Shown: piece after piece, positions 32,289-53,709 of the stretch
How positions within the stretch are numbered: position 1 is the stretch's first letter
Layout of the letters: every line of letters begins with the position of its first letter
Assembly: GCF_001689125.2 (NCBI RefSeq)
Contig: NZ_CP015405.2
Coordinates: 2,459,001 to 2,523,000 of the forward strand
Direction of reading: 5' to 3'
Source: Blautia pseudococcoides
GTDB taxonomy: Bacteria; Bacillota; Clostridia; Lachnospirales; Lachnospiraceae
DNA: 64,000 nucleotides
Program-made: the position numbers and the translations under genes
The notes under the pieces: model-generated
Databases searched by the model: none
The model's input: only the letters and a program-made list of their open reading frames with translations
What the model was told of the DNA's origin: nothing

Positions 32289-33920
32289 TTATTTTTTAGT
32301 GAACATTGCTTTGATTTTTTCAAATGTCTTTGAAGACTCCACTGCCGGCTCACCGGAATCCGGCGCATCGGCGATCACTTCCTCATAAATATACTCTCCC
32401 GTCTCTTTTCGCGGCCTGCGGGCCATATACTTCAGGAATCCAATGATCACCACCCAGCCGATGATGATGATCGGGAATCCTGTGAACACTTTTACGAACT
32501 TGATTCCGTCAATACCGCCGGTCAGCGTAAACACCAAGGATGCCACAGCAATGATAATACCCCAAATCAGTTTCAGCCAGAACGGCGCCTCCTCCGATTC
32601 AGAACTGCCTTTTACAGACATACTGGAAATGGTGGAGATCATGGAGTTTGCCAGGGTAACAAAGGAAATCGCTATGATCAAAAGCATAAACGGGCGGATG
32701 ATACCGGAAAACGGTACATGCTCAAACACTGCCAGCGTCATAGCCTCCGCACCTTTTTCCTGATAGAGGGCATAATAATCAATACCTTGATACATCTGTC
32801 CGTAGAGTACCGTTCCGCCAAAGATGGAAAACCAGAGAATTCCAAATGCGGATGGCATGAGCCAGTTCACTACTACGAATTGTCTTAACGTACGGCCATA
32901 ACCGAGACGTACCAGAAACAGTCCCATAATGGCGCCGTAACACAGCCAGTCAATCCACCAGTACATATCCCACCACTGAGGCCAGAGTGCACTGTCTGCA
33001 AAAGGCGCGGTAAACGTCATGGATTCAACAAAATGATTGATATAAGAACCAAATGACTGGGTAAAAAGATTCCCTATATAAGATCCGGGTCCAACCAGGA
33101 CCAGGAACAGCAGCATGAACATGAAAAACCATGAATTCTTATCTCCCAGCCATAAGATACCTTTGTTCAGTCCGCTGATACTGGTCGCTGTGTAAGCCAG
33201 GAAAATAACCACTGCGATGAGGGTGTACACCAGTACATTGGTATCAATGCCAAACACCACGGATACGCCGCTGCCCAACTGCAGAATGCCGTAACCGAGA
33301 GAACCGGCCACACCGCCTACCAGGGCAAAAACAGTCAATACGTCCACGACTCCGCCGAGTTTGCTGTTTACCACCTTATCCCCAAACATGGGCACCAAGC
33401 CGGAGCTTACATTGAATGGTTTGCGCATATTATGGATAACATATGCCATGACAATACCGAATGCAACATAAATGGCATAAGGAGTCAGGGTCCAATGTAG
33501 GAATGTGGTCCTCATGGCCCAGATCACGGCGTCATTGCTTCCGGGCACCAGTCCAAGGCTGGGCGCCGGCTCCATGGTAAATAACAACGGTTCTACGGCC
33601 CCCCAGAAGACAACGCCGGTTCCGATCCCTGCAGTCAGAGCCACTGCGAACCACTGCCAGTAACTCATCTTGGGTTTTGCATTTGGCCCTCCGAGTTTGA
33701 TTTTCCCCATGGGTCCCAACAGAACCACAAGGCAGAAAATAATAAACAAAAGCATGGTAATACTCACAACCCAGCCCAGTTTCTGCATCACTAACTCGAA
33801 AGTACTTGTAAGAGCAGCTATAAAAGCATTTCCATCTAATATGCCAAGAATCAGCACAACTGCAAAGATCAAGGTTGGCACCAACAGCACAGCATATCTT
33901 ACTTTTACTTTATTTTTCAT
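32289..33920 (-). CDS. BCCT-family transporter (betaine/carnitine/choline type)
   Basis: A 543-residue 12-helix membrane protein. W-G-A-V-E-P-L in TM3/4 and the BCCT signature M-Y-W-W-I-D-W-L-C-Y-G-A-I-M-G-L-F-L are present. Most family members carry compounds with a quaternary ammonium group. Its ATG overlaps the AOR stop codon (ATGA), so the two are translationally coupled, which argues that the oxidoreductase acts on, or downstream of, the imported compound. The substrate cannot be read from sequence. Confidence 0.92.
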   Translation of the reverse strand: MKNKVKVRYAVLLVPTLIFAVVLILGILDGNAFIAALTSTFELVMQKLGWVVSITMLLFIIFCLVVLLGPMGKIKLGGPNAKPKMSYWQWFAVALTAGIGTGVVFWGAVEPLLFTMEPAPSLGLVPGSNDAVIWAMRTTFLHWTLTPYAIYVAFGIVMAYVIHNMRKPFNVSSGLVPMFGDKVVNSKLGGVVDVLTVFALVGGVAGSLGYGILQLGSGVSVVFGIDTNVLVYTLIAVVIFLAYTATSISGLNKGILWLGDKNSWFFMFMLLFLVLVGPGSYIGNLFTQSFGSYINHFVESMTFTAPFADSALWPQWWDMYWWIDWLCYGAIMGLFLVRLGYGRTLRQFVVVNWLMPSAFGILWFSIFGGTVLYGQMYQGIDYYALYQEKGAEAMTLAVFEHVPFSGIIRPFMLLIIAISFVTLANSMISTISSMSVKGSSESEEAPFWLKLIWGIIIAVASLVFTLTGGIDGIKFVKVFTGFPIIIIGWVVIIGFLKYMARRPRKETGEYIYEEVIADAPDSGEPAVESSKTFEKIKAMFTKK

Positions 33921-35794
33921 ACTTTCCCATCCTCTCCATATAAATCTTCGATTACTTCCTCCATATGCCCCAGCCATTCCAAAGTCTCTTTATAAGGCTT
34001 TCCGTCCATATCCATCCACATTGCCTCGTAGAAACTGTCAATGGCCTGGTTCACATCATGGGTGACCCCTGCATTAGCCCCCGATTCAAGAGGTGGTTTC
34101 CCGATGATCCTGTCACTCCATGCAAAATCTCCTCTCTTCCACCCTTCCCTGACGTTAAAAGCGTTTCTCATATGGAAGATACGCATTCCCACCAGATGCT
34201 TCTCAATAGGGGTGTATGTAAATCCTGTGATAGCCTGGAGATAATCCCATTTCAGGTTTGCAATGGCCGTGTCATACATATGGCAGTAACCGCAGCATTC
34301 AGAAAACATATTTTCTGATTTTAATTTTGCATCCGTGAAACCAAGTCCCCGCTGGTTGTATCTGATCTCACGTGCCTGTCCCCGCAGGGAACCGCCCAAA
34401 GGACTCTTCATATGGCGTCCGGGCGTCGGTTCCACGGCTCCCTCTGCCAGATACCAGGGCGAGTTTCTGGGGTCATGCAGAGCCGACTCGATTCCTCCGA
34501 TCGTGAACAAATATTCATGGCCGGCTCCGATCAGATCCGCCGCAAACTGTGTCCCGTTTCTAAGAATCCTTGCCGCCTCCCCCACGTCCTGGCAGACTGC
34601 CTCAGCAACTGCCTCCATGGCTTCAGGATCTCCCCATTTAAAATCAATCCCGTTGAGCTGTTCCTTCGTCAGAACACCTTTTTCATAGCATTCACAGGCC
34701 CAGGAGAGTGTATTGATAAAAGCAATGCTGTCAAAGCCATATTCATTGGTCAGATAATTCACATAGACTACTGCGTCTCTGTCAGAATTCAGCATATTAG
34801 AGCTGAGACCTGCCTGTGACTCATATTCCGGACGGCTTGCGCCGTGTTTTGGAAGTTTTCCTTTCGGATCGTCAATCTCATATTTTGCCCCACAGCCAAG
34901 AGGGCAACAGTGACAGACGTATCTTGTCACCTTATAACCGGCTTCATAGGCGGGCTCATATATGGCATTTCCTTTATCTAAGGGATAATCCGCCTCATAT
35001 GTACTGCTCCAGTTTTTTACTCCGGCATCGTCTATAAGAAGCATTGCCCGCATCTGGCCGGCAGTTCCGTAATTTCCCCATTCACGGATATCCTTGTTAG
35101 CACCGTGCAGCATATCCTCTGCAACCTGTCTGTTGAGAGCGACCAGCCGCTCTTTGTCAAAAACCGGCACCTCCCGGTCTCCCCGCACAACCACGGCCTT
35201 CAATTTTTTAGACCCCATGACTGCGCCTGTTCCTCCGCGGCCTGCTGCCCTATGTTCATCATTCATGACACAGGCCATGTGGCTCAAACGCTCTCCTGCT
35301 GCCCCTATGATCGCCGCATTCATATCCTCACCCACTTCTGCGCGCAGGATTTCTTCTGTCTCGATCGTCCGCTTGCCCCAGAGATGGGAAGCATCACGGA
35401 TTTCCACATTTCCGTCATTCAGATACAGATAGACCGGCTTTTCCGAAATACCCTTTACAAAAATACCGTCAAAACCGGAATGTCTGAGCTTCGCCCCAAA
35501 ATACCCTCCGGAATTGGCATCATTCCACATACCTGTGACCGGGGATTTGGATACCACCATATATCTGCCCCCGAAAAATGCCCGGGATGCGCTCATAGGC
35601 CCCGCAAGAAATCCAACCATACTTTCCGGGGCAAATACATCTGTATGCGCGGGCATCTCATCATATAATATCTTGGCCCCCAGCCCATAGCCGCCTATAA
35701 AATTCCTGGCAAGTTCCTCTGTCAGCTCGCGGATCTCAAAGGTACCGTTGCTGAGATCCACAAAAAGCAGCTTGCCCATATAACCATACAGCAT
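33917..35794 (-). CDS. Aldehyde:ferredoxin oxidoreductase family tungsten-pterin enzyme
   Basis: A 625-residue enzyme of the AOR family, which oxidises aldehydes (or related carbonyls) with a W-bis-pyranopterin and a [4Fe-4S] cluster. AFOR_N spans about 1-205 (G-G-Y-G-L-G-A-K, G-P-M-S-A-S-R, A-G-R-G-G-T-G-A-V-M-G-S-K). The C-terminal domain has candidate cluster cysteines C294/C297/C301 and C504, and R-P-E-Y-E-S near the active site. Length is normal. tupABC, two moeA, a moaD-like and an E1-like gene nearby support tungsten over molybdenum. Actual substrate unknown. Confidence 0.93.
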   Translation of the reverse strand: MLYGYMGKLLFVDLSNGTFEIRELTEELARNFIGGYGLGAKILYDEMPAHTDVFAPESMVGFLAGPMSASRAFFGGRYMVVSKSPVTGMWNDANSGGYFGAKLRHSGFDGIFVKGISEKPVYLYLNDGNVEIRDASHLWGKRTIETEEILRAEVGEDMNAAIIGAAGERLSHMACVMNDEHRAAGRGGTGAVMGSKKLKAVVVRGDREVPVFDKERLVALNRQVAEDMLHGANKDIREWGNYGTAGQMRAMLLIDDAGVKNWSSTYEADYPLDKGNAIYEPAYEAGYKVTRYVCHCCPLGCGAKYEIDDPKGKLPKHGASRPEYESQAGLSSNMLNSDRDAVVYVNYLTNEYGFDSIAFINTLSWACECYEKGVLTKEQLNGIDFKWGDPEAMEAVAEAVCQDVGEAARILRNGTQFAADLIGAGHEYLFTIGGIESALHDPRNSPWYLAEGAVEPTPGRHMKSPLGGSLRGQAREIRYNQRGLGFTDAKLKSENMFSECCGYCHMYDTAIANLKWDYLQAITGFTYTPIEKHLVGMRIFHMRNAFNVREGWKRGDFAWSDRIIGKPPLESGANAGVTHDVNQAIDSFYEAMWMDMDGKPYKETLEWLGHMEEVIEDLYGEDGKV

Positions 35795-42578: not shown

Positions 42579-42604
42579 CAACTGACATGATAAAGGAGTT
42601 TACA

Positions 42605-43561
42605 ATGAACAGCATGAAGCGATTTATTCCGGTAACACTTATAAGAGGATTTCTGGATGCGGGAAAATCCACATTGATCAACCGGCTGGCCCAAGGCGGC
42701 ACTCTGTGTCCGGAGAAAGAAGACATACTGCTCCTCTCCTGCGAGGAGGGTGAAACTGCATATGACGACACTTGCCTTAACCAAAAGAACATAACCGTGA
42801 TCGGGCTTGAAGACGAATCCCGCCTGAACCGGGAGTACCTGGAACGTCTTGATGCGCTCTATGCTCCGAAAAGAATCATCCTTGAATGTAATGCCATGTG
42901 GGATCTGGTCGAATTCGAGCTGCCACAGAACTGGAAGGTAGAGAAAAGAATTGCCGTATTATGTGGGCCTACACTTGGTCTGTACCTTGATAACATGAGA
43001 GCATTTCTGGGACCTATGCTGAGTCGGTGTGATCAGATCTTCATCAACAGATGTGACAGCGGCGGCACCGGTATGCTCAGTCCTGTAAAGGCAAAGCTGA
43101 GACCGCTTCTTGATGATACTTCCGCTGTCATGATTGAATCACAAGGAAGTCTCTATGCCTTTGACGATATCAGAGATATCCTTCCATACACACTGGAGGC
43201 AGATCCTGTGGTCATCACACCTGAAAACTATGTCTGCTGGTTTTATGACTGCCAGGATCACCAAAACAGATACAAGGGCAGGCGGATATCCATGAATGCC
43301 AGCGTAAAAAAATCACCGGTCCTTGGAACCGGCGGCTTTGCGCTTGGAAGGATTGCCATCACCTGCTGTGAGGCAGATATGGAGTTTCTGGGCTATATGG
43401 CACATTACGACCTGATTGATTCCATTCCTCAGTTTGCCCATGTACACGCTGAGGCCATGGTCCGCTACCGCTTTATGCAGAAATACAATGCCGTAATGCC
43501 GTATCTGGAGGTGCTCCGTATGGAACCACTCAATCCTGATGACAGTATTGTAACCTTTTAA
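42605..43561 (+). CDS. CobW/COG0523-type G3E GTPase (putative metal chaperone)
   Basis: A 318-residue GTPase. Walker A is G-F-L-D-A-G-K-S-T (near residue 14), with I-L-E-C-N-A-M as the counterpart of the family's E-x-x-G region and N-R-C-D as an unusual G4. The C-x-C-C metal motif of ZNG/CobW proteins is not obvious; the C-terminal domain is shortened and diverged. COG0523 proteins insert or traffic metals. Its place among tungsten cofactor genes suggests service to one of the metalloenzymes. AAAGGAG precedes ATG 42605; it is followed 15 bp later by the LysR gene. Confidence 0.75.
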   Translation: MNSMKRFIPVTLIRGFLDAGKSTLINRLAQGGTLCPEKEDILLLSCEEGETAYDDTCLNQKNITVIGLEDESRLNREYLERLDALYAPKRIILECNAMWDLVEFELPQNWKVEKRIAVLCGPTLGLYLDNMRAFLGPMLSRCDQIFINRCDSGGTGMLSPVKAKLRPLLDDTSAVMIESQGSLYAFDDIRDILPYTLEADPVVITPENYVCWFYDCQDHQNRYKGRRISMNASVKKSPVLGTGGFALGRIAITCCEADMEFLGYMAHYDLIDSIPQFAHVHAEAMVRYRFMQKYNAVMPYLEVLRMEPLNPDDSIVTF

Positions 43562-47525: not shown

Positions 47526-48752
47526 TCAAACACGCTCTAATACCACGGTCACTTGTACCTCGGCGCCTTTTGCTACCCCTTCACAGTCTCTGTCGATACA
47601 GAAATAACCATCCGTTCCCGCCAGCGTTGTGATCAGGCCCGACTTTCCGCGGATAGGGAATGCAAACAGTTCTCCGTCTCTCTTTTCAAGACGGACACAG
47701 TGGTACTGCGCCCTGCCATGATTTGCACTGACATTCTCCGATATCCTTGCCGTGACCGTATAGCTGCTCATATCCCGGCAGGACAGTCTTCCAAGCAGCG
47801 AAAGGACAAAAAGTTTTGTGACAAAATAGGCAGCCACAGGATGCCCCGGCAGACCTACAAGGGGTTTGTTCCCCGCCTTTCCCAAAATGGTAGGTTTTCC
47901 GGGCTTGATGGCAATACCATGCAGCAGCAGTGTTCCCATGGATTGGATGATCCTGCAGGAGGCATCCTTGATCCCCACACTGCTTCCTCCTGAGAGCAGT
48001 ACGGCATCGCATTTCGAGACCGCTTCCTCCATCACGGCGGCAAGCCGTTTCTCATCATCTTTGACTATGCCGTAGTTTTTCACCTCTGCCCCAAAAAAAG
48101 TGAGCATGGCTTCCAGCATTGGACCATTTACATCCCTGATCTGTCCGGCTTTTGGACTGTTCTCAGGCGGGACCAGTTCATCCCCGGTGGATATCACCCC
48201 CACCACCAGCTTTTTCCTGACAGGTACCCGGACACAGCCCACAGCGGCCAGTGCTCCTATATCCTGGGCCCCAAGAACCCGTCCTTTCCTCAGAACCACT
48301 TTTCCCGGTTCCACATCATCTCCCCTGAAGATCATATTCTCTCCCGGTGCGGCTGGCTTTGTAATCCCCATAGTACCGTCACTGTAATCCTCCGTATATT
48401 CAACCATGACCACACAGTCTGCACCTTTCGGTACAGCACCGCCTGTGGGAACTGCACAGCAGGTTTCCGGCTGCAGTTCAAATTCTGCCCCTTCCCCCAT
48501 CAGCACCTCCCCTGCAAGAGGCAGGATGGCGGGAATGGCATCAGAGCAGCCAAAAGTGTCCCTGGCACGGATCGCAAATCCATCCACAGTGGACCGGTTA
48601 AAATCCGGAACATATTCCTTTGCCAAAATATCTTCCCCCAGTACCCTGCCTATGGCAGACAGAAGCGGTACCGTTTCCATACTCTCTTTCAGAGGAACGA
48701 ACTCCTGCTCTATGAGCTCCAGGACCTCCTCCGGCGTTTTTACTTGCAGCAT
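47526..48752 (-). CDS. moeA: Molybdopterin molybdotransferase MoeA
   Basis: A 408-residue stand-alone MoeA for ligating molybdate or tungstate to adenylylated pterin. S-T-V-D-G-F-A-I, S-T-G-D-E-L-V-P-P, L-S-G-G-S-S-V-G and G-L-P-G-H-P-V-A are intact. It is the second moeA of the island and divergent from tupA. Paired MoeA proteins occur in organisms that handle both Mo and W; which metal each serves is inferred only. GGGAGG precedes ATG. Confidence 0.93.
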   Translation of the reverse strand: MLQVKTPEEVLELIEQEFVPLKESMETVPLLSAIGRVLGEDILAKEYVPDFNRSTVDGFAIRARDTFGCSDAIPAILPLAGEVLMGEGAEFELQPETCCAVPTGGAVPKGADCVVMVEYTEDYSDGTMGITKPAAPGENMIFRGDDVEPGKVVLRKGRVLGAQDIGALAAVGCVRVPVRKKLVVGVISTGDELVPPENSPKAGQIRDVNGPMLEAMLTFFGAEVKNYGIVKDDEKRLAAVMEEAVSKCDAVLLSGGSSVGIKDASCRIIQSMGTLLLHGIAIKPGKPTILGKAGNKPLVGLPGHPVAAYFVTKLFVLSLLGRLSCRDMSSYTVTARISENVSANHGRAQYHCVRLEKRDGELFAFPIRGKSGLITTLAGTDGYFCIDRDCEGVAKGAEVQVTVVLERV

Positions 48753-49137: not shown

Positions 49138-50166
49138 ATGAAAAAAAACATCGCATTACTACTAACTCTGGCTTTGAGCTTCACTATGCTGACAGGCTGT
49201 TCCGGCGGGGATCATAGCAAGCCAAAGGCTGACGCGGCCGCCGCAGAAACGGAAACAAAGGACGACACAGACGCAGCAACACAATCTGCTCCCGACACTG
49301 TCATCCTGAAAGAAACTGACGAGAGCATGATCAATACCTATACGCTTATCGCAGTAAATCCGGATGCACCATTTGCTGACGCCGACGGAAATGCTGTTTC
49401 TGATGTTGCCATCAACACAGAAGGCGCCGATGCTCTGATTGACTGGTTTCTGACACAGGAAGCCCTGGATCTGGCTGCTGACTATGGCGTTGCTAAATAC
49501 AATGACCATTTATTTTATGTGAAGGACGATGCCCCAGCCTACTCTGGGGAGATCACCCCCGCAGCGGAAGAAAACAAAATCATCCGTCTCTCCACGACTA
49601 CTTCTGTGAACGATTCCGGTCTGCTTGGATATATGCTCCCAACTTTTGAAGAAAAGTATGGATATACGGTTGAAATACAGTCTGCAGGCACGGGAAAGGC
49701 GATTGCCGCCGCACAGTACGGCAATGCTGACCTCATCCTCGTCCATGCAAAATCACAGGAGGAGGTATTTGTAGCTGACGGTTACGCACGTACGGTTGAC
49801 GGCTTTGCATCCGAACGTCTTTCATTCCTCTACAATTACTTTGTGCTCTGCGGCCCATCGGCTGACCCCGCAGGAACTGCTTCCTGTGAAAATGTCTTAG
49901 ATGCCTTTGCCGCCATTGCTGAGACAAAAAGCGTCTTTATCTCCCGCGGTGACGGTTCCGGAACCCATACAAAAGAATTGTCCCTATGGCCAAAAGACCT
50001 GGGGATCACGGATCAGCCGGATTCCTTTGCCTCTTATACAGACTGGTATACATCAGCGAATGCCGGCATGGGAGCATGTCTGGTCATGGCCGAAGAGATG
50101 GGCGGTTATATCCTGACAGATAAAGCCACCTTCCTGGTATTTGTTCAAAACAACGGCGAAATGTAA
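49138..50166 (+). CDS. Tungstate ABC transporter substrate-binding lipoprotein, TupA-like, apparently circularly permuted
   Basis: A 342-residue lipoprotein (signal 1-20, lipobox L-T-G-C). Residues about 149-336 match the N-terminal and middle part of TupA: L-S-T-T-T-S-V-N-D-S-G-L-L-G-Y, S-A-G-T-G-K-A-I, A-D-L-I-L-V-H-A-K, S-R-G-D-G-S-G-T-H, and T-D-K-A-T-F-L near the end. The part that normally follows (I-L-x-E, N-T-Y-x-L-I-A-V-N-P, A-x-x-x-I-D-W, Y-G-x-x-K-Y, L-F) is instead at residues 55-128. The protein stops where that part should begin. GGAGG precedes ATG 49138. Confidence 0.85.
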   Translation: MKKNIALLLTLALSFTMLTGCSGGDHSKPKADAAAAETETKDDTDAATQSAPDTVILKETDESMINTYTLIAVNPDAPFADADGNAVSDVAINTEGADALIDWFLTQEALDLAADYGVAKYNDHLFYVKDDAPAYSGEITPAAEENKIIRLSTTTSVNDSGLLGYMLPTFEEKYGYTVEIQSAGTGKAIAAAQYGNADLILVHAKSQEEVFVADGYARTVDGFASERLSFLYNYFVLCGPSADPAGTASCENVLDAFAAIAETKSVFISRGDGSGTHTKELSLWPKDLGITDQPDSFASYTDWYTSANAGMGACLVMAEEMGGYILTDKATFLVFVQNNGEM

Positions 50167-52290: not shown

Positions 52291-53709
52291 TCACACCTTT
52301 GCAATATCTTTCTCTTTCATTCCCAGTTTTCTCATGATTGCGTCCAGTGCATCCCTTTTTTCCTGTGACAAAGTGGGATATTCATATTCCTCTAAAACCT
52401 TTTCAATTCTTTTCTGCGCAGAGGCATACAATTCTTCATTAGGATTACCTCGCCCGTTATCATGAACGGAAACCGTACTAAACCATGGATCCATTCTGCA
52501 CCGTTCAAAGGTATGTTCGACCGTAATAAAGTTGCTGCCTTCCTCCGCAACCTCCTGAATCGCATCAAAAGCCAGAGCATCGTCATCATCCGGAAGGTCA
52601 CTGAAATAGTAACGCATACGGTCAATGGTCTCAATATCCATAATAAATTTCTCGTAACTTACCGTATTAAAGGAATGCAGTGATCCTGTCGCATGCATGA
52701 CCAGATTGGCCTTTTCCGAAAACGATTCAAACAGACTCATGGCGCTTTCCACTCCGGCCTGAGCAGTCAGACCATTTGCATTGGACATTCCTCCGCCGCT
52801 TCTACATGCAAGGCCATATTTCTTGGACAACAACGCCCCATAACGTGCCTCCTTCAGGAAACCAGGGCAGGCATTGGATACATTCATATTTTTCATATCG
52901 CTGACAGTGGCGGCGAACCCGTAGACAATAGGCGTACCCGGATGAACCAACTGCGCATAGACATTCGTGGCTAAAATCTCAGCATTGGCAAGGGAGGTAT
53001 TGCCGGCAAGTGAGATGGGACCGGTACCGCCTGCCATAGGTCCAGGCGCAATTACCAGCGGCTGGCCGTTTTTGGCACAAACGTTTATGGTGTCAAGAGT
53101 GCCTTTTGTGATTCCCAGCGGACTTAACGTGGAAATCAAGTTAAAGCAGCATGGAATCTTTTCAATGTCACCCCCAAACACGATCCGCAGCATTTCCATA
53201 ATATGTTCCGCCTGCTCACCGCCTCCGCACACGGAAAAAAGCGCTTTATCGGAACGGCAGAGTGTAGTATAAACCATTGCTTCTACAGAAATATCGGCAT
53301 CAATGTCCGATGGCTGGGCAAGAATACCGCCGTTGATTGAAAATGCGTCACTGGACTGCACGATCATGGCAAGTTTCAGAAAGTCATCAAAAGTCGCTGT
53401 TCTGACCTTGCCGTCTGCTTCACAAATACTCGGGCTTCCATACCCCGGAGTGATATACAGGTCCTCTGTATTCATTTTCACATTGTAGGTACTGTTTCTT
53501 GCATATACGGTAAAATCTTTCACCGCAGTATCCAACGCATGCATCACCTGCTCCTCGGTAAAATAAGCACGATTTTCTTCCACCCGTATGCCGCCTTTAC
53601 GAAGGATCTCCAAAGCCTCCTCGGAAAGAAAAGCCATACCTACTTCCTCCAGGATACGAAGCGTATTCTGGTGAATCCGTTCCACGATCTGCTCATCACG
53701 TTTTGTCAT
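52291..53709 (-). CDS. MttB-superfamily methyltransferase (non-pyrrolysine)
   Basis: A 472-residue TIM-barrel protein of the trimethylamine methyltransferase superfamily. Members lacking pyrrolysine demethylate quaternary amines such as glycine betaine, carnitine or proline betaine, passing methyl to a corrinoid protein. N-terminal R-I-H-Q-N-T-L-R-I-L-E-E-V-G, G-Y-G-S-P and H-P-G-T-P-I-V-Y-G fit the family. The frame is uninterrupted, so there is no amber-encoded pyrrolysine. No corrinoid protein or MtgA-type partner is in the window. AAAGGAG precedes ATG. Confidence 0.88.
   Translation of the reverse strand: MTKRDEQIVERIHQNTLRILEEVGMAFLSEEALEILRKGGIRVEENRAYFTEEQVMHALDTAVKDFTVYARNSTYNVKMNTEDLYITPGYGSPSICEADGKVRTATFDDFLKLAMIVQSSDAFSINGGILAQPSDIDADISVEAMVYTTLCRSDKALFSVCGGGEQAEHIMEMLRIVFGGDIEKIPCCFNLISTLSPLGITKGTLDTINVCAKNGQPLVIAPGPMAGGTGPISLAGNTSLANAEILATNVYAQLVHPGTPIVYGFAATVSDMKNMNVSNACPGFLKEARYGALLSKKYGLACRSGGGMSNANGLTAQAGVESAMSLFESFSEKANLVMHATGSLHSFNTVSYEKFIMDIETIDRMRYYFSDLPDDDDALAFDAIQEVAEEGSNFITVEHTFERCRMDPWFSTVSVHDNGRGNPNEELYASAQKRIEKVLEEYEYPTLSQEKRDALDAIMRKLGMKEKDIAKV

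Follow-up and report, generated by a model that had tools for sequence, protein, structure and literature searches.

The window analysed here, a 64,000-nucleotide stretch of the Blautia pseudococcoides genome, encodes a TupA-like protein (hereinafter P0001) for which a sequence-only reading placed the segment that ends ordinary TupA proteins (residues about 55-128) ahead of the segment that begins them (residue about 152 onward). The locus raises the questions of whether this order is real, how it arose, and whether a protein so rearranged could still serve tungstate uptake.

Order of the TupA segments in P0001

The open reading frame of P0001 starts with an ATG at 49138, preceded by a ggagg stretch, and ends with a TAA at 50164-50166 (Table 1). 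Against a profile of 246 positions built from 84 ordinary TupA rows and no permuted row, P0001 gives two domains, with residues 47-130 matching positions 172-244 (40.4 bits) and residues 149-337 matching positions 2-175 (212.2 bits). The two domains lie in the swapped order that had been proposed, and the pieces jointly span positions 2-244, the extent of a full-length TupA homologue. Residues 50-135 on their own score 43.5 bits against the same profile, compared with 5.1 bits for the best of 500 shuffles, which bears out their likeness to the C-terminal segment of TupA, and when the pieces are rearranged in silico to the ordinary order they give a single domain over positions 2-244 with 263 bits. 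A phmmer comparison with PDB sequences finds the same arrangement in 3muq, where P0001 residues 148-336 match chain positions 6-179 and residues 49-101 match 179-232; the second match starts where the first stops, in swapped order, and is weak when taken alone (9.8 bits, i-E 4.4). The linear order of TupA, N-terminal and then C-terminal piece, is swapped in P0001 as in the 79 permuted frames described below. P0001 is circularly permuted relative to ordinary TupA. It scores 129.3 bits with the NCBIfam TupA model NF041772 (cut-off 400), and L152, an ordinary TupA of the sister lineage, also falls below the cut-off (207.7 bits). The sequence-only reading had the protein stop right after TDKATFL, which is nearly the case, since nine more residues (VFVQNNGEM) follow.

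Table 1. Coordinates of the permuted tupA gene, its parts and neighbouring genes in the window
Feature	Position	Strand	Basis
Permuted tupA (P0001), 342 aa	49138..50166	+	Swapped two-domain match to ordinary TupA profile; ORF read
Signal peptide with lipobox-like LTGC (Cys 21) and acidic, alanine-rich linker, residues 1-50	49138..49287	+	Sequence
Moved segment, residues about 51-132, equivalent to the C-terminal end of ordinary TupA	49288..49533	+	Profile 172-244 of 246, 40.4 bits
11-residue insert A-D-A-D-G-N-A-V-S-D-V, residues 80-90, inside the moved segment	49375..49407	+	Alignment
Linker from old C-terminus to old N-terminus, residues about 133-147	49534..49578	+	Lies between both profile matches
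N-terminal three quarters of ordinary TupA, residues about 148-337; TTTS 153-156, H203, R270, T276, D328	49579..50148	+	Profile 2-175, 212.2 bits
tupB-like permease, 228 aa	50300..50986	+	Pfam BPD_transp_1; NCBIfam ABC_perm1 170.7 bits (above cut-off 100); TupB model 135 bits (below cut-off 320)
tupC-like ATPase, 218 aa	50983..51639	+	Pfam ABC_tran on longer frame; TupC model 89.8 bits (below cut-off 400), among many ABC ATPase models
Divergent moeA	47526..48752	-	Pfam MoeA_N, MoCF_biosynth and MoeA_C, all above cut-off
Aldehyde ferredoxin oxidoreductase family protein	33917..35794	-	PF02730 above cut-off at G000:C1:2494180-2494776 (window 35180-35776); NCBIfam PRK09849 211 bits (below cut-off 868)
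MoeA-type molybdopterin biosynthesis protein, 652 aa	29688..31646	-	NCBIfam PRK14498 745 bits (above cut-off 534)

The insert within the moved segment resembles a calcium-loop motif of the DxDG kind or a tight hairpin. Its residues D81 and D83 are kept in 199 and 189, respectively, of the 199 rows of an alignment of P0001, its best 120 relatives and 78 permuted DNA frames. The span from N-x-Y to W measures 38 residues in 71 of 77 permuted rows (the pattern finds no match in the remaining 6) and 22-31 residues in the 53 of 84 ordinary rows that the pattern matches.

Distribution and origin of the permuted form

A protein search that scored 7999 candidates found 5223 relatives at E <= 0.001, and in all of the best 120 of these 5223, which entered the 199-row alignment, the moved segment keeps its N and Y, ahead of TTTS. 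A pattern scan of species genomes for the permuted family yielded 74 loci, 73 in permuted order and one a contig-end fragment; since the patterns came from the permuted family, ordinary TupA is not expected among them. These loci stem mainly from uncultured Oscillospiraceae, Lachnospiraceae and other Clostridia, many of them from animal gut samples. Together with frames from genome surveys, 171 TupA frames were collected, of which 79 (73 scan loci, the window's gene and five survey frames) have the moved piece first, 90, all from the surveys, have the ordinary order, and two are unclassed (L095, the contig-end fragment, and L132, in which the second part was not found). Homologues with the order of P0001 are thus among these frames, and the profile domains are swapped in all 79 permuted frames versus none of the 90 ordinary ones, which disposes of the possibility that ordinary TupA proteins share this order. 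Both counts include repeats (76 permuted and 85 ordinary frames are distinct by their last 180 residues), three ordinary entries (L014-L016) are second fetches of one gene, and some survey genomes may duplicate other genome records (L050 and L096 are alike). As permuted queries were used to collect the permuted set, its size is no measure of the share of the permuted form among all TupA.

Both pieces of the permuted protein are under purifying selection, with dN/dS of 0.10-0.37 for the moved part plus linker and 0.03-0.34 for the rest over 15 pairs, the first 15 among 52 looked at whose synonymous differences were not near saturation. A further reading would be a mis-assembly, a frameshift or a decaying gene; it has a negligible probability and is refuted by the relatives with the same order, 79 frames (76 distinct) from many assemblies, and by the selection acting on both pieces, and we found nothing in its support.

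A TupA match (E <= 1e-8) occurs in 33 of 392 genomes sampled from the window's order, the permuted form being found in four (G000, the window's genome, G109, G329 and G416, the last with two permuted copies), and in 47 of 391 genomes sampled from the class, again with four carriers (G000, G109, G459 and G770). In the phylum sample 187 of 398 genomes have a match, and among the matches listed, ordered by E-value, only that of G000 is permuted. Among 19 other genomes of the window's genus, three have an ordinary TupA and 16, some of them incomplete, have no match. No ordinary TupA was listed in the six permuted-carrying genomes, where scoring in the order and class samples was limited to five candidates per genome; G000, with all 28 candidates scored, has a single TupA match at E <= 0.001.

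Phylogenetic trees were built from 31 permuted representatives below 86% identity and 84 ordinary rows no shorter than 230 residues, each distinct sequence being taken once; the permuted row L086, which lacks the TTTS pattern, was left out. In the tree of the common part, which has 30 permuted rows and 71 ordinary ones (14 rows, 1 permuted and 13 ordinary, having been dropped where the pattern missed the end of lobe B), the permuted proteins form one clade (SH-aLRT 99) adjoined by the ordinary rows L152 and L153 (90). The tree of both parts, made from 17 permuted rows and 40 ordinary ones (10 chosen and 30 drawn, with the long-branched L155 and L160 left out), gives the permuted clade support of 100/100 and places L152 and L153 as its sister pair (98/93). 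As there is one permuted clade nested among ordinary TupA, a single ancestral permutation would be enough to account for the trees. Those ordinary TupA of the window's genus and family that the trees include are placed away from the permuted clade in both trees, and the permuted gene therefore most likely reached the genus by transfer. The genomes of L152 and L153 (G1076 and G1156) belong to the same phylum and are listed outside the class. Compared with P0001, their TupA proteins show 58% and 55% identity in the common part and 38% and 42% in the moved part.

The moved part could in principle be a similar piece from a different binding-protein gene, the original TupA tail having been lost. 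It is short and carries an insert, a foreign source has been discussed for the permuted protein TpMglB-2 (PMC4990184), and a profile of the moved part ranks L153 first and L152 only tenth, so that the moved part by itself does not fix the sister. We nevertheless consider a foreign piece quite improbable: the match to the C-terminal segment of TupA is specific, as the shuffles above illustrate; N-T-Y, found in 70 of 77 permuted rows, is confined to L152 and L153 when the 54 of 84 ordinary rows with the pattern are considered; and the trees of both parts and of the common part, made from different row sets, share the sister pair.

With the moved part taken as TupA's own tail, the rearrangement would have arisen through a tandem duplication and a fusion, with the outer parts being lost. 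One cassette of G1076 (L181) holds a tupA, a permease gene, an ATPase gene and then a second tupA, and two copies so placed may represent the raw material for a permutation by duplication. An alternative route, in which the segment was cut and pasted or the gene was split and re-fused, keeps a real though minor share of the probability. It accords with the observation that none of the 169 classed frames is an intermediate with the moved piece at both ends; what speaks for tandem duplication with trimming instead is that same-cassette copies do exist in the sister lineage and that the linker before the TTTS strand resembles, by eye, the mature N-terminus of L152. The second tupA of G1076 (L181:4781-5653) has, by eye, an altered ligand site (TTET for TTTS, SPS for GTG and SEVY for SGTH) and may be a non-binding or differently binding paralogue.

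Ligand site, lobes and genomic neighbourhood

In TupA of Desulfovibrio alaskensis G20 (DaG20) the ligand site has been described as residues T9-T11, S12, H59, R118, T124 and D170, and mutation of R118 showed its importance for oxyanion binding (PMC5517513). Matches to PDB sequences identify the counterparts in P0001 as T153-T155, S156, H203, R270 (equivalent to R118), T276 and D328, and all eight residues are kept in 198 or 199 of the 199 rows. P0001 would accordingly be expected to bind tungstate and to close on its ligand like ordinary TupA.

The structure model of P0001 is confident overall (pLDDT 90.0, pTM 0.81), and structure aligners that keep chain order match only its residues about 137-341 to TupA. 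The alignment behind the model contains ordinary C-terminal fragments in rows of their own, and in many of these the final residues are misplaced. Lobe A of DaG20 TupA comprises A2-R76 and Y201-E251, and lobe B comprises A91-Q200 (PMC5517513). When P0001 is mapped on 5my5 and these limits, the cut falls at about TupA residues 178-185, within lobe B and roughly 15-20 residues ahead of the Q200/Y201 crossing, and the old ends that were joined are both part of lobe A. Taken alone, the second match to 5my5 scores low (2.9 bits), but it is gap-free and aligns N-x-Y on N-x-Y. The suggestion that both break points meet at the hinge therefore finds no support in that form. Because the cut falls inside lobe B, both chain ends and the membrane tether would have shifted from lobe A to lobe B, leaving lobe A as one continuous stretch.

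Residues 1-50 have low model confidence, as of a disordered tether, and a loose lipobox pattern is found in 176 of the 199 related rows. Some permuted TupA proteins (P0037 and its relatives; L041, L044 and L071) have signal peptides that lack a clear lipobox, so that lipid anchoring may not extend to every permuted TupA.

Genes for a TupB-like permease and a TupC-like ATPase, which score below the NCBI TupB and TupC cut-offs, lie beside that of P0001. The TupC-like protein has 218 residues against a 319-position model, and its best stretch reaches position 209, so that it seems to be without a C-terminal extension. A tupB gene lies directly downstream in 72 of the 74 loci with at least 900 bases there, the exceptions being L056, whose tupB frame begins inside tupA, and L093, which has none; tupC is present in 72 of 73 loci (51 by script, and 21 of the remaining 22 when longer stop-to-stop frames are read), L093 again being the only one without. 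The diverged permuted tupA at L093:5797-6867 has neither gene beside it and, by eye, another ABC transporter downstream on the opposite strand.

Enzymes of the aldehyde oxidoreductase (AOR) family use tungsten. An AFOR_N match lies 2.9 to 14.4 kb from the permuted tupA on the same contig in five of the six permuted-carrying genomes examined, G416 having none, and within flanks of up to 6 kb a side AOR is found at 27 of 73 loci and AOR or MoeA at 54. One 13 kb stretch of G459 holds AOR and the permuted tupA together with, by eye, two moeA genes, tupC, tupB and a moaA-like gene, and the window has the same kinds of genes except moaA. Tungsten-containing oxidoreductases and TupABC have been described in gut microbes (PMC11980592).

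Other genes were noted in passing. The window encodes at 42587-43561 a CobW-like protein with a weak match (below cut-off) of its C-terminal part to TIGR03943, a family of putative permease subunits, and at 52291-53709 what we take to be a member of the trimethylamine methyltransferase (MttB) family. In G416 (C6:22953-24218), a molybdopterin oxidoreductase match contains one internal TGA, possibly for selenocysteine.

A permuted yet plausibly working protein, as the sequence-only reading had it, agrees with the swapped-order matches, the kept ligand residues, the purifying selection, the operon and the confident model. P0001 is very probably a naturally permuted, lipid-anchored, two-lobed TupA, predicted to bind tungstate and to serve a TupB/TupC importer, and it and its relatives likely retain the ordinary function. 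It would catch tungstate outside the cell and hand it to the TupB/TupC encoded just downstream, and the imported tungsten would feed the products of the nearby cofactor genes and the aldehyde oxidoreductase. That a working permuted protein instead binds a changed ligand (molybdate or another oxyanion), or acts as a sensor rather than in uptake, is unlikely. The scores below cut-off for the NCBIfam TupA, TupB and TupC models and the new, conserved insert would fit such a change, and weighing against it are the eight published ligand-site residues, all kept, the downstream tupBC with AOR and moeA as neighbours, and the absence from the genome of a second TupA match that could serve for tungstate.

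We regard it as doubtful that the rearrangement was adaptive rather than neutral, an idea suggested by the move of the tether and ends from lobe A to lobe B and by the conserved DxDG-type loop. If it was, the opening and closing balance or the docking on TupB might have changed, and one ancestral tupABC cassette might have spread through gut Firmicutes, replacing ordinary TupA. Many gut bacteria are likely tungstate users, and the binding protein of carriers may score below the NCBI TupA cut-off, as seen among permuted proteins for P0001 only.

Comparison with known binding proteins

DaG20 TupA (5MY5; PMC5517513) and the proteins of 3LR1, 3MUQ and 3KN3 belong to the same family over both pieces and share the TTTS, H59, R118, T124 and D170 set; P0001 differs from DaG20 TupA in its swapped order, its 11-residue insert and, as predicted, the position of its ends and tether on lobe B instead of A. 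The closest unpermuted relatives in the trees, L152 and L153, share STTTSVNDSGLL and N-T-Y with P0001, but have the ordinary order and no insert; G1076 carries a further copy, whose ligand site is altered.

Circular permutation has been described in other kinds of binding protein. TpMglB-2 (Tp0684) of Treponema pallidum, designated Type Ic, is likewise a natural circular permutation of a lipid-anchored ABC binding protein, and its relatives occur in treponemes and gut Gram-positives; unlike P0001, it has a glucose-binding Type I fold and its N-terminal piece moved to the end (PMC4990184). Its permutation added a fourth crossing, and its moved part is 13% identical to its counterpart, a foreign source having been considered (PMC4990184). 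P0001 shares with Type Ic the permuted order relative to ordinary relatives but not the Type I/Cluster B sugar-binding character, its sequence and fold matches being TupA and PBP_like_2. Glycine betaine- and molybdate-binding proteins and CysB, in the CPSARST work, form one permutation family, which thus includes molybdate binders; unlike P0001, they were found by structure, are less than 24% identical in any pair and are permuted between families, not within one, and TupA is not named in the parts of that source available to us (PMC2395249).

The literature searched, which mostly left subscription papers aside, likewise yielded no permuted TupA, in line with the sequence-only reading, which knew of none. 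We therefore rate as new the permutation of a TupA, with unusually clear sequence evidence, and not that of a binding protein as such. The permuted TupA is a real and widespread form that lends itself well to experiment. The known cases retain little resemblance at the sequence level (13% for the moved part of TpMglB-2, below 24% in the CPSARST set; PMC4990184, PMC2395249), whereas here the identity between permuted and ordinary forms is still 55-58% in the common part and about 40% in the moved one, the sister is known and one event is needed. The locus amounts to a natural protein-rearrangement experiment whose closest unrearranged relative is also known, so that the effect of moved ends and a moved membrane anchor on ligand affinity, closing and handover in an ABC importer can be tested directly.
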